A DNA stretch of 64,000 bases from Rhodospirillales bacterium. GTDB taxonomy: Bacteria; Pseudomonadota; Alphaproteobacteria; Rhodospirillales; JASLQF01. This document shows, piece by piece, positions 1 to 49,384 of the stretch. Both the position numbers and the translations under genes were made by a program. Below the pieces are notes generated by a model. That model saw only the letters and a program-made list of their open reading frames with translations, had not been told where the DNA came from and ran no database searches. The stretch is from positions 1 through 64,000 of the forward strand of contig JASLQF010000037.1 of NCBI GenBank assembly GCA_030744625.1, read 5' to 3'. How positions within the stretch are numbered: position 1 is the first letter of the stretch; each line of letters begins with the position of its first letter.

Positions 1-45
1 TTCGGGAGGCGGGGGCCGGAGGTTCAAATCCTCTCACTCCGACCA
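1..45 (+). tRNA. tRNA-Pro (anticodon CGG), 3' part only
   Basis: The window opens inside a tRNA gene. The first seven bases TTCGGGA fit an anticodon loop with anticodon CGG (bases 3-5), followed by the 3' anticodon arm, a five-base variable loop, a T stem (GGAGG / CCTCT) around TTCAAAT, a 3' acceptor strand CACTCCG, discriminator A and an encoded CCA at 43-45. The same layout and T-arm sequence occur in bacterial tRNA-Pro genes, which start with CGG. The 5' half lies outside the window, so the acceptor pairing could not be checked. Confidence 0.85.
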
Positions 46-108
46 ATTTCCTTAAAAATACAAAATTGCTTATGGCTTTCTGCCGGTGCCCTGGCGCACC
101 GTTCGCAG

Positions 109-1722
109 TCAACCTTGGCCGGCGTATTCCCGGTCGCGCAGCACGCGGCGGCGGATCTTGCCGGTCACCGTTTTCGGCAGGTCGTCGACGAAGGCGATGC
201 GGCGCGGATACTTGTATGGCGCGGTAACGCGCTTGGCGTGGTCGCGGAGCTCCTCGGCCAGTTCCTGGCTCGCCGCATATCCCGCATGGAGGACGATGAA
301 GGCCTTGACCACTTCGCCGCGCTCGGCGTCCGGGCTGCCGACGGCGGCGCATTCCTGCACCGCCGGATGCTCCATGAGCGCGTTCTCCACCTCCTGGGGG
401 CCGATGCGGTAGCCGGCCGAGTTGATCACGTCGTCGGCGCGCCCGAGATAGAAGAAATAGCCGTCCTCGTCCCTGTACGCGTTGTCGCCGGTGAGGAACC
501 ACCGGGCGCCGCCCGCCTCGACGATGGCGGCCTGGGTCATCGCGGGCTCCTTCCAGTAACCCAGCATCTGTTGCGGATTGGGCAGGCGCACCGCCAACTG
601 CCCCGGTTGGCCGGACCCGGCGAGGGTGCCGCCGTCGTCGATGACCGCAACCTCGGTCCCCGGCAGCGGGCGGCCCATGGAGCCGGCCTTGACCGGCATC
701 CCCGGATAGTTGAGGACGGTCATCAGGGTCTCCGTCTGCCCGTAGCCGTCGAGCAGGGGCACCCCGCTCAACGCCCGCCATTTTTCCACGATCTCCGGGT
801 TCAGCGCCTCGCCGGCCGAGACCGCGAGCTTCAGAGACGAAAGGTCATGGGACCCGACGTCCTCGGCGATGAGGCGGCGGAACTCGGTGGCGGCGGCGCA
901 GAACACGGTAACCCGGTAGCGCTCGAGCAACTCGAGCCGCCCCGCCGGGTCGAAGGGACCGTCGTAAAAGAGTACTTCGGCGCCTTGGCTCCAGGGCCCG
1001 AAGAGGATGCTGGTACCGGCCTTCGACCAGCCGGTATCGGCGGTGCACCACATCAGATCGTCGGGCCCCAGGCCCAGCCAGTAGCGGGCCGAGCCCCTCC
1101 AGGCATAGAGGCCGCGCGCCGCGTGCATGGCCCCCTTGGGCGCGCCGGTCGAGCCCGACGTGTAATAGAGGATGGCCGGGTCCTCGCGCGCCATGGCGAC
1201 CGCGTCGAAGGCGTCGGAGACGCCGCCCATGGCGTCCTCGAAATCGAGCCACCCGTCGCCGCCGCCGACGCTCACCCGGCAGCACAGATTTGGCTCACCA
1301 TGAAACTTGTGGACATTTTCGCGGGTCGTCACCGCCGCCACCGCCCCCGAGTGCGCCGCCCGGTACGCAATGTCGCCCTCGGTCAGCATGGTCACGCAGG
1401 GCACCGGCACGGCGCCCAGCTTGGCGCAACCGACCACGGCGATCTGCCACTCGGGAATGCGCGGCAGCATGACGATCACCCGATCGCCCTTGCCGACCCC
1501 GTGGCCGCGAAGCAGGTTGGCGAAGCGATTGGACAGCCGCGCCACCTCGGCGAAAGTCAGGCGCCGTTCGCGGCCTTCACCGTCGCACCAGATCAGCGCC
1601 GGCTTGGCCACGTCCGCCGCCCACGCATCGACCACGTCGGCGCCGAAGTTGAAATGCTCGGGCACTTCCCAGCGGAAGGCCTTGCGGGTGGCCGCGTAAT
1701 CCGTCATCGCCGGTCCGCTCAT
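109..1722 (-). CDS. acyl-CoA ligase (AMP-forming), medium-chain acyl-CoA synthetase type
   Basis: This 537-residue protein would activate a carboxylic acid with ATP through an acyl-adenylate and transfer it to coenzyme A in the cytoplasm. It carries the adenylate-forming signature YYTSGSTGAPKG near residues 186-197, the GYGQTE motif, the hinge region FLTGDNAYRDEDGYFFYLGR, and a C-terminal PKTVTGKIRR with the catalytic lysine. The layout and length match the acetyl-CoA/medium-chain acyl-CoA synthetase branch rather than long-chain FadD; the substrate cannot be read from sequence. An ATG at 1722 lies directly behind an AAGGGTGGAG stretch; a GTG one codon upstream and an ATG five codons downstream are alternatives. 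It is transcribed away from the cold-shock gene and stands alone. Confidence 0.9.
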   Translation of the reverse strand: MSGPAMTDYAATRKAFRWEVPEHFNFGADVVDAWAADVAKPALIWCDGEGRERRLTFAEVARLSNRFANLLRGHGVGKGDRVIVMLPRIPEWQIAVVGCAKLGAVPVPCVTMLTEGDIAYRAAHSGAVAAVTTRENVHKFHGEPNLCCRVSVGGGDGWLDFEDAMGGVSDAFDAVAMAREDPAILYYTSGSTGAPKGAMHAARGLYAWRGSARYWLGLGPDDLMWCTADTGWSKAGTSILFGPWSQGAEVLFYDGPFDPAGRLELLERYRVTVFCAAATEFRRLIAEDVGSHDLSSLKLAVSAGEALNPEIVEKWRALSGVPLLDGYGQTETLMTVLNYPGMPVKAGSMGRPLPGTEVAVIDDGGTLAGSGQPGQLAVRLPNPQQMLGYWKEPAMTQAAIVEAGGARWFLTGDNAYRDEDGYFFYLGRADDVINSAGYRIGPQEVENALMEHPAVQECAAVGSPDAERGEVVKAFIVLHAGYAASQELAEELRDHAKRVTAPYKYPRRIAFVDDLPKTVTGKIRRRVLRDREYAGQG

Positions 1723-1975
1723 CACTCCACCCTTTCCGACCCAAAAACGGCGACCACGGAGCCCACAAAATTCAAGGCCAAAGGAAAAGCGGCCTTGATT
1801 ATCGCCGAAAACAGCGATAGGTATCTCAAATCACTGGGATTGCATATCTTGGCGTTTCTTGATTGGCCGCCGCGGCGACCAGACTAGTTGCTCCTTGTCA
1901 TTGTAAGACCGTGTCCGCTGCCGAGCCTGCGTTTTGCCCGTGTTCAGCGGCTTTTGACTTGAATAAGGAGTCGAC

Positions 1976-2185
1976 ATGACTATTGGAACCGTCAAGTGGT
2001 TCAATCCCGCCAAGGGGTTTGGCTTCATCCAGCCCGACGATGGCGGCAAGGACGCTTTCGTTCACATTTCGGCCGTTGAACGCGCCGGACTGCCCAATCT
2101 CCACGAAGGCCAGAAGGTCGAGTACGAACTCACACCCGGCCGTGACGGCAAGTCTTCCGCGGAGAACCTCTCCATCATCGAATAA
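1976..2185 (+). CDS. cold-shock domain protein, CspA family
   Basis: A 69-residue single cold-shock domain protein that binds single-stranded RNA or DNA and is expected to melt RNA secondary structure. RNP1 (KGFGFI) and RNP2 (AFVHIS) are both intact, as is the N-terminal GTVKWFN strand. The start is set by AAGGAG at 1965-1970, five bases before the ATG. About 250 bases separate it from the divergent acyl-CoA ligase, long enough for the extended 5' leader known for many csp mRNAs, but I could not define a promoter or thermosensor structure. A small membrane-protein frame follows 88 bases downstream. Confidence 0.97.
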   Translation: MTIGTVKWFNPAKGFGFIQPDDGGKDAFVHISAVERAGLPNLHEGQKVEYELTPGRDGKSSAENLSIIE

Positions 2186-2273
2186 CGCATTCCATTCACG
2201 GGCGCGTAGATGTAAGGCGGTGGCCGCTGCCGGTGCCGCCCAGTGTCGATCACGGCCGAAAAATGAGAGTAAT

Positions 2274-2360
2274 ATGAGCGCCTTAAAAAAAGTCCCCGTG
2301 GTGGTTTGGCTGGTCGTCGCCTTCGCCGCCCTGATTACCATCGGCGTGACCCTCAGTTAA
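2274..2360 (+). CDS. putative 28-residue single-span membrane microprotein
   Basis: A short frame from ATG at 2274 to TAA at 2358 encodes 28 residues: a basic start (MSALKK), about 19 consecutive hydrophobic residues (VPVVVWLVVAFAALITIGV) and a short tail. This is the profile of a small single-helix inner-membrane protein. The ribosome site is weak (GAGAGTAAT before the ATG). It lies 88 bases after the cspA-like gene on the same strand with no terminator seen between, so it may share that transcript. It is too short for family assignment, and chance cannot be excluded, though an uninterrupted hydrophobic run flanked by start and stop argues for selection. Confidence 0.5.
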   Translation: MSALKKVPVVVWLVVAFAALITIGVTLS

Positions 2361-2443
2361 CGAACAGGGCCCGTCCGCGTCGGCTTCGATGCGGCGTGGA
2401 CCCGCACCGTCGCCGGACCGACAGCCTCGGCACGTTACGTCAG

Positions 2444-4324
2444 TCACGTCCCCTTCGCCGCCCCTACGGTCCCGGTTCGCGGCCGCCACGCGCTGGCGCG
2501 GGCTTCAACCTTTGATATCTGTCCGGCGCTCAGGCGTTTGGCGACGCGGGTGCGGAGATATCTGGCCTTGTCCCTGCCCCGTCCTTTCTGGTGCTCGACG
2601 ATCACGGTGAGCCAGAACAGGGACTCAGCCAAGTCCCGAGCCACGCCCGTGCCCTTCAGATAGAAGTTGGCAATCCTCATCTGTGCCTTGGCGTGGCCCC
2701 GCTCGGCGGCCTTGCGGTACCATTTGGCGGCTTTCTCCTTGCTTTTGGGGACACCACGCCCTTTCTCGTAGACGACGCCTAGGTTGTTCTGGGCCCGGGC
2801 AAAGCCCTGCTCGGCGGCATCACGGAACCACTTCGCCGCCAGGGCGTCGTCGCGCGCGACGCCAACGCCCTTGGCGTACTTCACACCGAGGTTGTACTGG
2901 GCCATGGCGTGGCCCTGTTCGGCGGCCTTGAGGTACCAATACGCCGCCTGTTCCTTGTTTTTAGCGACACCCCGCCCCTTCTCAAACATGACACCGAGAT
3001 TATTTTGGGCCAGGGCATGGCCCTGCGCCGCCGATTTCGCGTACCAGGCCGCGGCCTTTGCATCATCGCGCCGAACGCCCCGGCCCTTGTCGTAGAAAAC
3101 GCCCAAGTTGTACTGGCCGAGGACATAGCCATTTTCCGCCACCTTGCGGTACCATTTGGCAGCCTCGGAAGGATCTTGCGCAACGCCCCGGCCGACGTCG
3201 TACATGGTGCCAAGCTTGTATTGGGCGATGACGACACCCTGCTCGGCGGCCTTGCGGTACCATTTCGCCGCCGTCGAATGATTGAGCGCGATCCCCTGGC
3301 CATTGCCGTACATGGCACCGAGGGCATGCTGGGCCGCGGCATGGCCTTGCTCGGCGGACCGGGTCATCAATCTGGCCGCCGCCGCATGGTCCGGGCGCAT
3401 TTTCAGCCCGCTCAGAAGTACCTGAGCGAGCTGGAACTGCTCCCCCGCCGACCCCTCCCGGAGAATCCTCTCCATCTCGGCCGCGGCGTACTTTTCGACG
3501 GCCTGTTGGGCGGCTCCTGCAATGCCCTTTTTGGCAAGGTCGGCAACATAGTCCTGGAAGACCGTGAGCAAACCCGGCACGTCGGGATTAAGAGATTCCC
3601 AAAGCCCGACCGACGAGGCGGCATTTTTCCGCATGTAGCGCTTGAAATCCGAGCAGTACCCGTCAACGAAACCGACGCCTTCGAGCTCCTGGCGAAATTC
3701 GATCATTTCCCTCGACGATTTGTCGAACCCGAGCTTCTGGTAGGCCAGCTCCTCGTAGAGCCAAGACTCGCATTCAAGGTCGACGTTGCGCATTTTCTCG
3801 AGGCGTTCCTCGAGGTGTTGCATCCCGTGGCCGACCAGTTCGTGAACCAGCACGGCGGCCAGTTCGCGCGCCGGCCACTTGATGCCATAGCGGCTGACGA
3901 TGGCCACGAAATTCTTTCCGCGCCCCTGCCCCGCCTTCTCCAAATAGTGGGGCAGGAAGGCGGCGACCCGGACCGTACTCATGCTGGACTTGGGATCCGG
4001 ATAGTTTGGATCGTAGGCGAGCACCACCACGCCGTTCCGCTTCAGGGTTTCGATCTTCGCCATGCCGAAGGCGATACTCCCGTAAACGAGATCGAGGGCT
4101 TCGGCCATCCGGTCCAACGCGGCGGACGCATCGATGGGTTTCACGTCGTATTCCGCCCCCTTCTTGGGAGGCAGGGACATTAGTGAAACGTCCTTGTGTG
4201 TCCGACGCACCGAAGCCTGATCTTGGGCCGCGGCCCCGGTGGCGACCACGCCGCCACCGAGGACCGCCAGGACCAGCCCGCCGGCAAGCGTCCTCGCAAC
4301 TGGCAGCGGGAGAATTGGTGGCAT
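2444..4324 (-). CDS. exported Sel1-repeat protein with an HExxGH motif in its N-terminal half
   Basis: A 626-residue protein with an N-terminal signal peptide (hydrophobic core ending near GAAAQD, residue ~33) and two parts. Residues ~60-300 form an unassigned domain with HELVGHGMQH at 161-170 and an acidic LECESWLYEE stretch 13 residues later. From about residue 330 there are seven to eight Sel1-type repeats of 36 residues (pattern A-WY-KAAEQGxAxAQxxLGxxYxxGxGV), which build an alpha-solenoid used for protein-protein contacts. ATG at 4324 is preferred over a GTG eight codons upstream because GGAGG sits 8 bases before it. It diverges from the DctP gene. A periplasmic scaffolding role, possibly with metal binding, is inferred; HExxGH is the spacing of the DPP III (M49) motif, not the usual HExxH. 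Confidence 0.85.
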   Translation of the reverse strand: MPPILPLPVARTLAGGLVLAVLGGGVVATGAAAQDQASVRRTHKDVSLMSLPPKKGAEYDVKPIDASAALDRMAEALDLVYGSIAFGMAKIETLKRNGVVVLAYDPNYPDPKSSMSTVRVAAFLPHYLEKAGQGRGKNFVAIVSRYGIKWPARELAAVLVHELVGHGMQHLEERLEKMRNVDLECESWLYEELAYQKLGFDKSSREMIEFRQELEGVGFVDGYCSDFKRYMRKNAASSVGLWESLNPDVPGLLTVFQDYVADLAKKGIAGAAQQAVEKYAAAEMERILREGSAGEQFQLAQVLLSGLKMRPDHAAAARLMTRSAEQGHAAAQHALGAMYGNGQGIALNHSTAAKWYRKAAEQGVVIAQYKLGTMYDVGRGVAQDPSEAAKWYRKVAENGYVLGQYNLGVFYDKGRGVRRDDAKAAAWYAKSAAQGHALAQNNLGVMFEKGRGVAKNKEQAAYWYLKAAEQGHAMAQYNLGVKYAKGVGVARDDALAAKWFRDAAEQGFARAQNNLGVVYEKGRGVPKSKEKAAKWYRKAAERGHAKAQMRIANFYLKGTGVARDLAESLFWLTVIVEHQKGRGRDKARYLRTRVAKRLSAGQISKVEARASAWRPRTGTVGAAKGT

Positions 4325-4501
4325 GGCACGGCCTCCACATGCACGCACTCGACGCCTGAACCGGATATCACCGGAAGGCCGAGCTTAGCGCTTTCACCTC
4401 GCCGATTGAACCCGTCCATCGCGTATTCGGTGATGCCGCCTGTGTGGACGGGAATGGTCCAGCCGGGGTAAGAACAAGGGCCTCGCGGCGGGAGAACCGA
4501 C

Positions 4502-5653
4502 ATGCGTAACGGCGTCATCGGAATTGTCATCGGTATCGTGGTCGGCGTCGTCGTCGGCGCCACGGTGGTGGCTCCGAGACTGGCCCCAAAAATACCGCCT
4601 CCCGGCACCCGCATCGCGGTCCACAGAAACGTGCCCCAGCCGGAGACCATCGCAAGATCGAAACCGGCACCCAAACGGGGGCCGGAACAGGCCGTGCGCT
4701 GGAGGATGGCGAGTGCCTTCGCGGCGTCGCTCCCCCAACTCGGGACCCTCGCCAAGCGCGTCGACAAACGCATCTGGCAGGTGTCCGGCGGCGGGATGGA
4801 GATCAAGTTTCACGAGCCCGGCACCCTCGTTCCTACCCTTGAGATGTTCGACGCCGTGGCCTCGGGGGCCGTCGAGGCGGCCTTCTCCTCACCGGCATTT
4901 TGGAGCGACCACGCGCCCGCCCTGCAAATCTTCGCCGCGGTGCCTTTCGGCCCCTCCGCCGGAGAGTTTCTGGCCTGGATGTACTTCGGCGGCGGCAAAC
5001 CCCTGCTCGACGAAATTTATCGCCGCAACGGCATCCACGGCATCCTGTGCGGGCTCATCGCATCCGAGGCCTCGGGTTGGTTTCGCAAGGAAATTCGCAC
5101 GCTCGATGACCTGAGGGGCTTGAAGATGCGCTTCGCCGGCCTCGGTGCCAGGGTCATGGAAAACCTGGGAGTGAAAACGGTACCGCTCGGCGGCGGCGAC
5201 ATATTCGTGGCGCTGGAGACGGGCGCCATCGACGCCGCCGAGTACTCCATGCCGGCCGTCGATTTGAAACTGGGCCTCCACGGGATGACCAAACACTACT
5301 ACTTCCCGGGATGGCACCAGCCGGCGACGCTATTCGATCTGATGATCAATTTGGAAAAGTGGAACGCGCTCTCCCCGGCCCACAAGGCGCAGATCGAGAC
5401 GGTGTGCGGAGACAATATCCGTTATGGCTTGGCGGAAGGCGAATCCCTGCAGTTCGACGCGATGAAGCAACTGAGCGCCAAGGGTGTGCGCCTCCACCGC
5501 TGGCCCTCGAAGATCCTCGACGCCCTGGAACTGTCGTGGCGGCAAGTGGCGGCCGAGGAGGCCGCCAAGGACCGCGAATTCAAGAGGGTCTGGCAGTCTC
5601 TGAGCGGCTTCCGGGAGAACTACTCCATATGGAAGGAATTGGGATACTTGTAG
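4502..5653 (+). CDS. TRAP transporter solute-binding protein, DctP/TakP type, membrane-anchored
   Basis: A 383-residue periplasmic solute-binding protein of the DctP family. It captures an organic acid and hands it to a DctQM permease. The core (residues ~65-383) shows the family landmarks: the linker region LRGLKMRFAGLGARV with the carboxylate-binding arginine, then ALETGAIDAAEYSMPAVD and the YYFPGWHQP segment characteristic of the TakP-like branch. The N-terminus is a long glycine-rich hydrophobic helix (residues 3-25, repeated GxxxG spacing) without an evident cleavage site, so the protein is probably tethered to the inner membrane, followed by a proline-rich linker. No permease gene is adjacent; the only DctQM pair in the window is at 56494-58365. 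The ligand is unknown. Confidence 0.87.
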   Translation: MRNGVIGIVIGIVVGVVVGATVVAPRLAPKIPPPGTRIAVHRNVPQPETIARSKPAPKRGPEQAVRWRMASAFAASLPQLGTLAKRVDKRIWQVSGGGMEIKFHEPGTLVPTLEMFDAVASGAVEAAFSSPAFWSDHAPALQIFAAVPFGPSAGEFLAWMYFGGGKPLLDEIYRRNGIHGILCGLIASEASGWFRKEIRTLDDLRGLKMRFAGLGARVMENLGVKTVPLGGGDIFVALETGAIDAAEYSMPAVDLKLGLHGMTKHYYFPGWHQPATLFDLMINLEKWNALSPAHKAQIETVCGDNIRYGLAEGESLQFDAMKQLSAKGVRLHRWPSKILDALELSWRQVAAEEAAKDREFKRVWQSLSGFRENYSIWKELGYL

Positions 5654-5695
5654 CCCCATTCGCCTTCGGGCCAGCCGCTCTCGGCGGTTCGCCCC

Positions 5696-6829
5696 TCAGG
5701 AAGCGGTCAAGGAGTCGGCGGTCAACTGTCCCATCTTGGTTAACAGGTATTCCAGGTCGTCGGAATCGAATTCCACGCCGAGGTCGCCGTACTGGGTGAG
5801 GATGCGCTCGATCATGCGGCGCGCGTAACGCTCGCGGTCGTTCTCCTCACCGTCGTAATCGGTCTCTCGCGCCACGTCGATGGCGGCACGCACCGCCGGA
5901 AAGTGGGAATTCGGCAGGCCCGCCTTCTCGAAGGCGGTCCTGAGGCCGAGCTTGCCCGGATCGTGGATCAGCTTGCGCGCGTTGAAGAGCGATATCCCGA
6001 GCAACTCGGCGAAAGCCGCTTCGAAGAAGTTGATATCGCCCATGCACAAGCCGCGCAGAATGATGGACGGGGTCAGCCTGCCGTTCTTGTTCAGCTGTTT
6101 CACGAGGCTAGCCAACTCATCGGCGCTCGTTTCGCTTGAAAGCGTGATGGTGGCACGCTCGCGGCTTTGCAGGATGAGGTCGGTAGCCAGGGACGGCGGC
6201 AACTCCTGGTGTTTGACCAGCTCTTCCTTCATGCCTTCCGAAATCATCGTCACGAGGCGTTCCGAAACGGTAACCGGTAGCCTGGACCGGTGGATCATGG
6301 CGGATTGGATGCCTTCCCGGTCACCGAAGTCGCCGACCACCTTTTGCAGGGATCCCTCTGAAATGTCGGCGCCTTCGTTGGAAACCAATGCCGTCACCGC
6401 GTCTTCGTTTCGCGTTTCCACCAGGGCCTCGGAAACCGATTTTGAAATCGTCGAGCGTTGCGCGATGGCCACCTGTTTCTCGGTATTATGGCCGCCCACG
6501 ATTTCAATCAAGTCCTCATCGGACAAGGCCTCGGAAAACTGCAACACGGGCATCGCCACCGAGGCAACGTCCTTCGCCAAACTTACCGCCACGTCTCGGG
6601 GGACGTTCGGGTTTTCCTTGAGATTATGAGCCATGGCCTCGCGGACCCGCACTTCCGCATCCCGAACCATGAGCCGGAAAATTTCTTCCGCCAACTGGCG
6701 CTCTTGGTCGGTCAGGACGCCAGTATTGAATCCCGCCGCGATCTTGACCGCCGTATCCGCCCGCGCGTCCCCGGACGGGTCCGTCAACAACTGGGCAACG
6801 TCTTGTTCCGTTAGGGTAATTCGCGCCAT
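5696..6829 (-). CDS. DUF2336 domain-containing protein
   Basis: A 377-residue, acidic, all-helical soluble protein that matches the pattern of the alphaproteobacterial DUF2336 family: an N-terminal ITLTEQDVAQLLTDPS, tandem HEAT-like helical pairs (for example VRVREAMAHNLKENPNVPRD) and a C-terminal ERYARRMIERILTQ region. Family members in Caulobacterales and relatives are linked to PopA/PleD-type or cell-cycle signalling in a few cases, but most are uncharacterised and no function is claimed here. The ATG at 6829 (MARITL) is preferred; the frame stays open 34 codons further upstream through a serine- and cysteine-rich stretch that does not look coding. It converges with the DctP gene, 42 bases apart. 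Confidence 0.8.
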   Translation of the reverse strand: MARITLTEQDVAQLLTDPSGDARADTAVKIAAGFNTGVLTDQERQLAEEIFRLMVRDAEVRVREAMAHNLKENPNVPRDVAVSLAKDVASVAMPVLQFSEALSDEDLIEIVGGHNTEKQVAIAQRSTISKSVSEALVETRNEDAVTALVSNEGADISEGSLQKVVGDFGDREGIQSAMIHRSRLPVTVSERLVTMISEGMKEELVKHQELPPSLATDLILQSRERATITLSSETSADELASLVKQLNKNGRLTPSIILRGLCMGDINFFEAAFAELLGISLFNARKLIHDPGKLGLRTAFEKAGLPNSHFPAVRAAIDVARETDYDGEENDRERYARRMIERILTQYGDLGVEFDSDDLEYLLTKMGQLTADSLTAS

Positions 6830-48869: not shown

Positions 48870-48983
48870 TTTTCACGTTTATTTCTTGACGCCGCGACCG
48901 CAAGGCGCCACCACCGGCTCGTCGCAGGACGTGGCGGAGCCCCACCTGGGCGCTCGCCGGCAACCGGGAATTCATACGAAGAA

Positions 48984-49384
<401 letters not shown>

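Follow-up and report, generated by a model that had tools for sequence, protein, structure and literature searches.

The locus raises the question whether a frame of only 28 codons, located directly behind a cold-shock gene in a Rhodospirillales bacterium, is a real gene, and whether its function has anything to do with the gene in front of it. The window, by which we mean the whole stretch of DNA that was analysed (64,000 nt, positions 1 to 64,000 of contig JASLQF010000037.1), carries the following features at this place:

1976..2185, + strand: cold-shock domain gene csp, 69 aa (Pfam CSD, E 5.1e-23), the upstream neighbour, outside the conserved context of the family described below
2186..2273, + strand: spacer of 88 nt between csp and the microprotein gene, analysed by a pattern scan and by comparing its folding with that of shuffled sequences
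2274..2360, + strand: microprotein gene, 28 aa with one predicted transmembrane helix, an N-terminal KK and the C-terminus ...IGVTLS

The frame starts with ATG at 2274, stops with TAA at 2358-2360 on the + strand, and encodes MSALKKVPVVVWLVVAFAALITIGVTLS. On its other side follows a convergent Sel1-repeat gene (2444..4348), so that the gap in which it lies, counted from the end of csp, measures 258 nt. The initial annotation had described a complete 28-residue frame with a basic start, one hydrophobic helix and a stop, 88 nt after csp on the same strand, and all of this was borne out by our analysis. The same is true for the poor ribosome site that it had noted, as the duplex with the anti-Shine-Dalgarno sequence reaches only -2.7 kcal/mol, a value that 45% of 896 random ATGs attain as well. 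A scan for a hairpin followed by a T-run found no terminator within 120 nt after the frame. A longer product from the open frame overlapping csp (TTG 1983, 125 aa) was also considered and rejected, since relatives have in-frame stops shortly before the ATG, five codons before it in three close relatives and 7-14 codons before it in others. A four-codon frame (ATG AGA GTA ATA TGA, 2263..2277) overlaps the microprotein start as ATGA, which is possibly chance or translational coupling.

Using the 28 window residues alone as seed, a search against 60 related genomes gave matches in eight of them at E<=1. Besides the window and its duplicate one match was convincing, a complete 28-aa ORF MERLKKVPVLVWLISAFATLIVIGVFFT with the Shine-Dalgarno (SD) sequence AAGAGG in a genome from another family (G033, E 1.4e-6), which is 69% identical to the window protein over 26 residues. 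Profiles were built stepwise from two (A1), twelve (A3) and twenty-three (A4) rows and searched in 317 genomes of the order, giving matches in 41 genomes at E<=0.1 for the two-row profile, most of them weak and many within long frames, and in 25 and 29 genomes at 0.01 for the 12-row and the 23-row profile, respectively. From these 29 genomes we left out G037, whose contig repeats 5960 nt of the window without a difference, as well as G169 and G177 with matches inside 598- and 271-codon frames, leaving 26. A class-wide draw with the 23-row profile matched 5 of 318 genomes, the window's own included, from which G498 and G463 were kept and G434 and G607 dropped, their matches lying inside long frames; when the class had been searched before, using the 12-row profile, there were matches in 5 of 385 genomes, the window's own again included. 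Together with the window the family comprises 32 members; of the 28 genomes that carry them, 26 belong to the order Rhodospirillales, and the family thus ranges over this order and some other Alphaproteobacteria. As a control, the reversed profile of the same 23 sequences matched 2 of 199 genomes, both times inside long frames and neither time a small ORF. As members were collected by iterated profiles, the weakest of them (e.g. L133) could be wrong. The distribution is patchy, with 29 of the 317 genomes of the order and 10 of the 212 good-quality genomes showing a match, and this patchiness and the weak start site in the window are the main cautions to be kept in mind.

Two of the sequences that were set aside deserve a comment. 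The second match in G498 (L138, contig G498:C104) is the C-terminal end of a 176-codon frame in which no own start was seen, and it was dropped as a member; the tail of this frame, ...KNKALIALVAGFAVLIGVGVMTS, resembles the microprotein, as if the helix could serve as a C-terminal anchor too. The duplicate in G037 (G037:C57, loci L002 and L066, JASLLZ010000151.1) is a 5960-nt contig identical to positions 3..5962 of the window, found in a metagenome-assembled genome (MAG) that belongs to another family and shows 7% contamination, and one of the two bins holding this contig is probably wrong.

All members are stand-alone genes of 23-37 aa with a conserved frame and a basic N-terminal tail of variable length. 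The tail is followed by a motif, A/G-F-x-x-L-I-x-x-G-I-x-x-S, whose distance from the stop does not vary. Counted back from the stop, A/G at -13, I/V/M at -8, G at -5 and S/A/T at -1 are present in 32/32 members, K at -23 in 31/32, and F at -12 and L at -9 in 30/32 each. The last 20 residues are free of D, E, K and R in every one of the 32 members, and the conservation is helix-periodic at 90-100 degrees (moment 7.5 at 100 degrees, permutation p 0.002), so that one face of the helix is the conserved one. The window protein keeps K -23, A/G-F at -13/-12, L -9, G -5, the small C-terminal residue and the fixed distance to the stop. An SD energy of -5 or better was calculated for 31/32 members compared to 168/896 random ATGs, the window copy being the weakest of the family; for several longer members we set the start codon by eye, which biases them towards good SDs, and the 28-aa members left hardly any choice. 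A hairpin with a T-run follows within 120 nt for 14/32 members compared to 11/180 control stretches. Between the window and the member L039 we found a dN of 0.24 and a dS of 0.62, and compared to more distant members most changes are at third positions. For the three g33 genomes, which are the closest mutual relatives, dN is 0.05-0.10 and dS 0.11-0.17, a ratio of about 0.5 that is not strikingly low and comes from few changes in only 28 codons. In the same three genomes the sequence TTGACC-16-TATA(A/T)G, 165-170 nt upstream, looks promoter-like; the consensus scan listed none there. From these comparisons we have high confidence that the microprotein is real as a family.

The most frequent neighbourhood, found for 13/32 members at 12 loci in genomes of several genera, is the order HIT-hydrolase gene, microprotein and ppdK. 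At 11/12 of these loci ppdK is present on the stretch and convergent with the microprotein gene, HIT is present at 11/12, and GlyS lies beyond ppdK where the stretch reaches that far; some stretches are short at contig ends, so neighbours could be missed there. The distance between microprotein and ppdK amounts to 66-650 nt at ten loci and to 1364 nt in G103. In the window's own genome HIT follows ppdK directly, with no microprotein between them. Four other members (L101, L102, L104 and L105) are located 154-250 nt after a gene of 96-116 aa on the same strand, C7, whose product has a signal-like N-terminus and no Pfam match, and the remaining members including the window have other neighbours. 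G033, G067 and G070 each have a second copy, and G086 has two copies in tandem. At L109 (964..1412) two different members lie in tandem between HIT and ppdK. No obvious membrane partner in an operon with the microprotein was seen at the loci viewed.

The initial annotation had further proposed that csp and the microprotein form a co-regulated cold-shock pair, and of this combined claim the microprotein half holds, given the conserved frame, the fixed C-terminus and the SDs described above, and the cold-shock half is not supported. When we looked for conservation of the frame downstream of other csp genes it was absent at all 28 loci (L011-L038), not counting L009 and L010, which are the window itself and the identical contig. 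This contig is the only other one with csp and microprotein and, being a 100% identical 5960-nt copy in another MAG, is not independent of the window. On the fetched stretches no csp gene adjoins any other family member, the nearest being 3.3 kb away on the opposite strand. Within the spacer (2186..2273) the folding is no better than that of shuffles (z -0.22), and the pattern scan found no terminator-like or promoter-like site. With no such site, transcription running on from csp is plausible, and both genes may be co-transcribed in this one genome. That they form a cold-induced bicistron, with the microprotein as partner of csp in the cold response, would agree with their common strand, the short distance and the lack of such sites between them, but we regard it as unlikely in view of the 28 csp loci lacking the frame and the other 31 members located away from csp; the missing terminator, moreover, is shared by 17/28 other csp genes (11 of all 29 have one, the window csp does not). 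The pairing with csp is peculiar to the window genome, and a cold-shock reading is not supported beyond it. In the csp leader (1860..1975, + strand) the SD AAGGAG can pair with an upstream CUCCUU, with an energy that is only a little better than for shuffles (z -1.04). Far downstream, at 48983..49382 on the - strand, the window also encodes a full-length bacterial class A RNase P RNA (Rfam RF00010, 302 bits).

Database searches did not connect the family to a described one. No match above cut-off was obtained in Pfam for 23 members (the best stray match being Sec61_beta with E 0.0044 in 2/23), none above the curated cut-off in NCBIfam for 12 members and no credible one in PADLOC for 23 members, and PHROGs gave stray matches only (12 members, best E 0.028). 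Solved structures gave no match either, nor did 72,556 plasmid and 50,697 phage records when searched with the window protein. As we recognised no paper on a microprotein family with the AF..LI..G motif, it is apparently undescribed, although large smORF catalogues (PMC11364881, PMC11796252) may hold members of it. We take it as a new family within a known kind, the small single-helix membrane proteins. AcrZ, CydX, KdpF and MgtS of E. coli are small accessory single-helix proteins of about 30-50 aa that act by binding a membrane protein. Our family resembles them in its length and its one helix, and partner binding is suggested by the conserved helix face; it differs from them in having no Pfam or NCBIfam match above cut-off and no evident membrane partner encoded in the same operon. 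Among Alphaproteobacteria, the small proteins SEP6, SEP16 and SEP20 of Sinorhizobium meliloti with their predicted transmembrane helix are similar; they differ in that SEP6 and SEP16 are conserved in Hyphomicrobiales and SEP20 (46 aa) is encoded in a cytochrome oxidase operon (PMC10117765).

The explanation that we favour, and consider probable, is that the frame represents a genuine gene from a family of 23-37 aa single-pass inner-membrane proteins with N-in/C-out topology and a partner-binding helix face, the window copy of which sits behind csp and is expressed by read-through, if at all. According to the positive-inside rule a basic tail is found on the cytoplasmic side, and the basic N-terminal tail would thus stay in the cytoplasm, with the helix spanning the membrane and the short C-terminal end at its outer side. 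The conserved face (A/G-F..L-I..G...S) may pack against a membrane protein that serves as partner, or several copies may pack together into a small oligomer. A contact with a partner helix would make the microprotein an accessory or regulator that steadies or tunes its partner, in the way known from other small accessory proteins of the membrane. This accessory role, binding and modulating a membrane protein, is what the helix face may point to. Many members have their gene as a small transcription unit by itself, most commonly flanked by HIT and ppdK. In the window genome, where it is missing from this place and has a weak start behind csp, its expression would probably depend, if it occurs at all, on read-through from csp.

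A more specific version, which we put forward only tentatively, is that the family represents an obligate accessory subunit missing so far from a membrane complex of Rhodospirillales and related Alphaproteobacteria. The invariant helix face and the C-terminus fixed to the residue would fit such a subunit, and it might have been overlooked because annotation passes over genes this short and because they lie away from those of the partner. Length and hydrophobicity would also fit the toxin of a type I toxin-antitoxin system repressed by an antisense RNA, and toxins like TisB, Ldr and Ibs consist of a tiny hydrophobic helix and are sometimes multicopy, which the second copies and the tandem pair mentioned above recall, as does the structured 5' region at one g33 locus (z -2.08). 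Unlike these toxins, however, our family has a fixed neighbourhood at 12 loci and no known antisense RNA. A toxin is made improbable by the position flanked by HIT and ppdK, which is stable across 12 genomes from several genera, by the strong SDs and by the absence of the window protein from the plasmid and phage records.

For the window copy itself one might assume a relocated and decaying paralog of a real family that is no longer translated, as it is the only member with a poor SD and has neither a terminator-like nor a promoter-like site of its own; its intact frame and the retention of all strongly conserved positions argue against decay, which we likewise consider improbable. That the frame is a chance ORF without function is hardly credible: it is short, and the G+C-rich window contains many spurious frames, but the homologues, their SDs, the synteny and the reversed-profile control all contradict it.

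In summary, a conserved and apparently unnamed family is added to the bacterial microproteins on solid comparative evidence, and it supplies a motif and a helix face that can be tested. Furthermore, it illustrates that a neighbour present in one genome, such as csp, can mislead on function, whereas the wider neighbourhood of HIT and ppdK does not.
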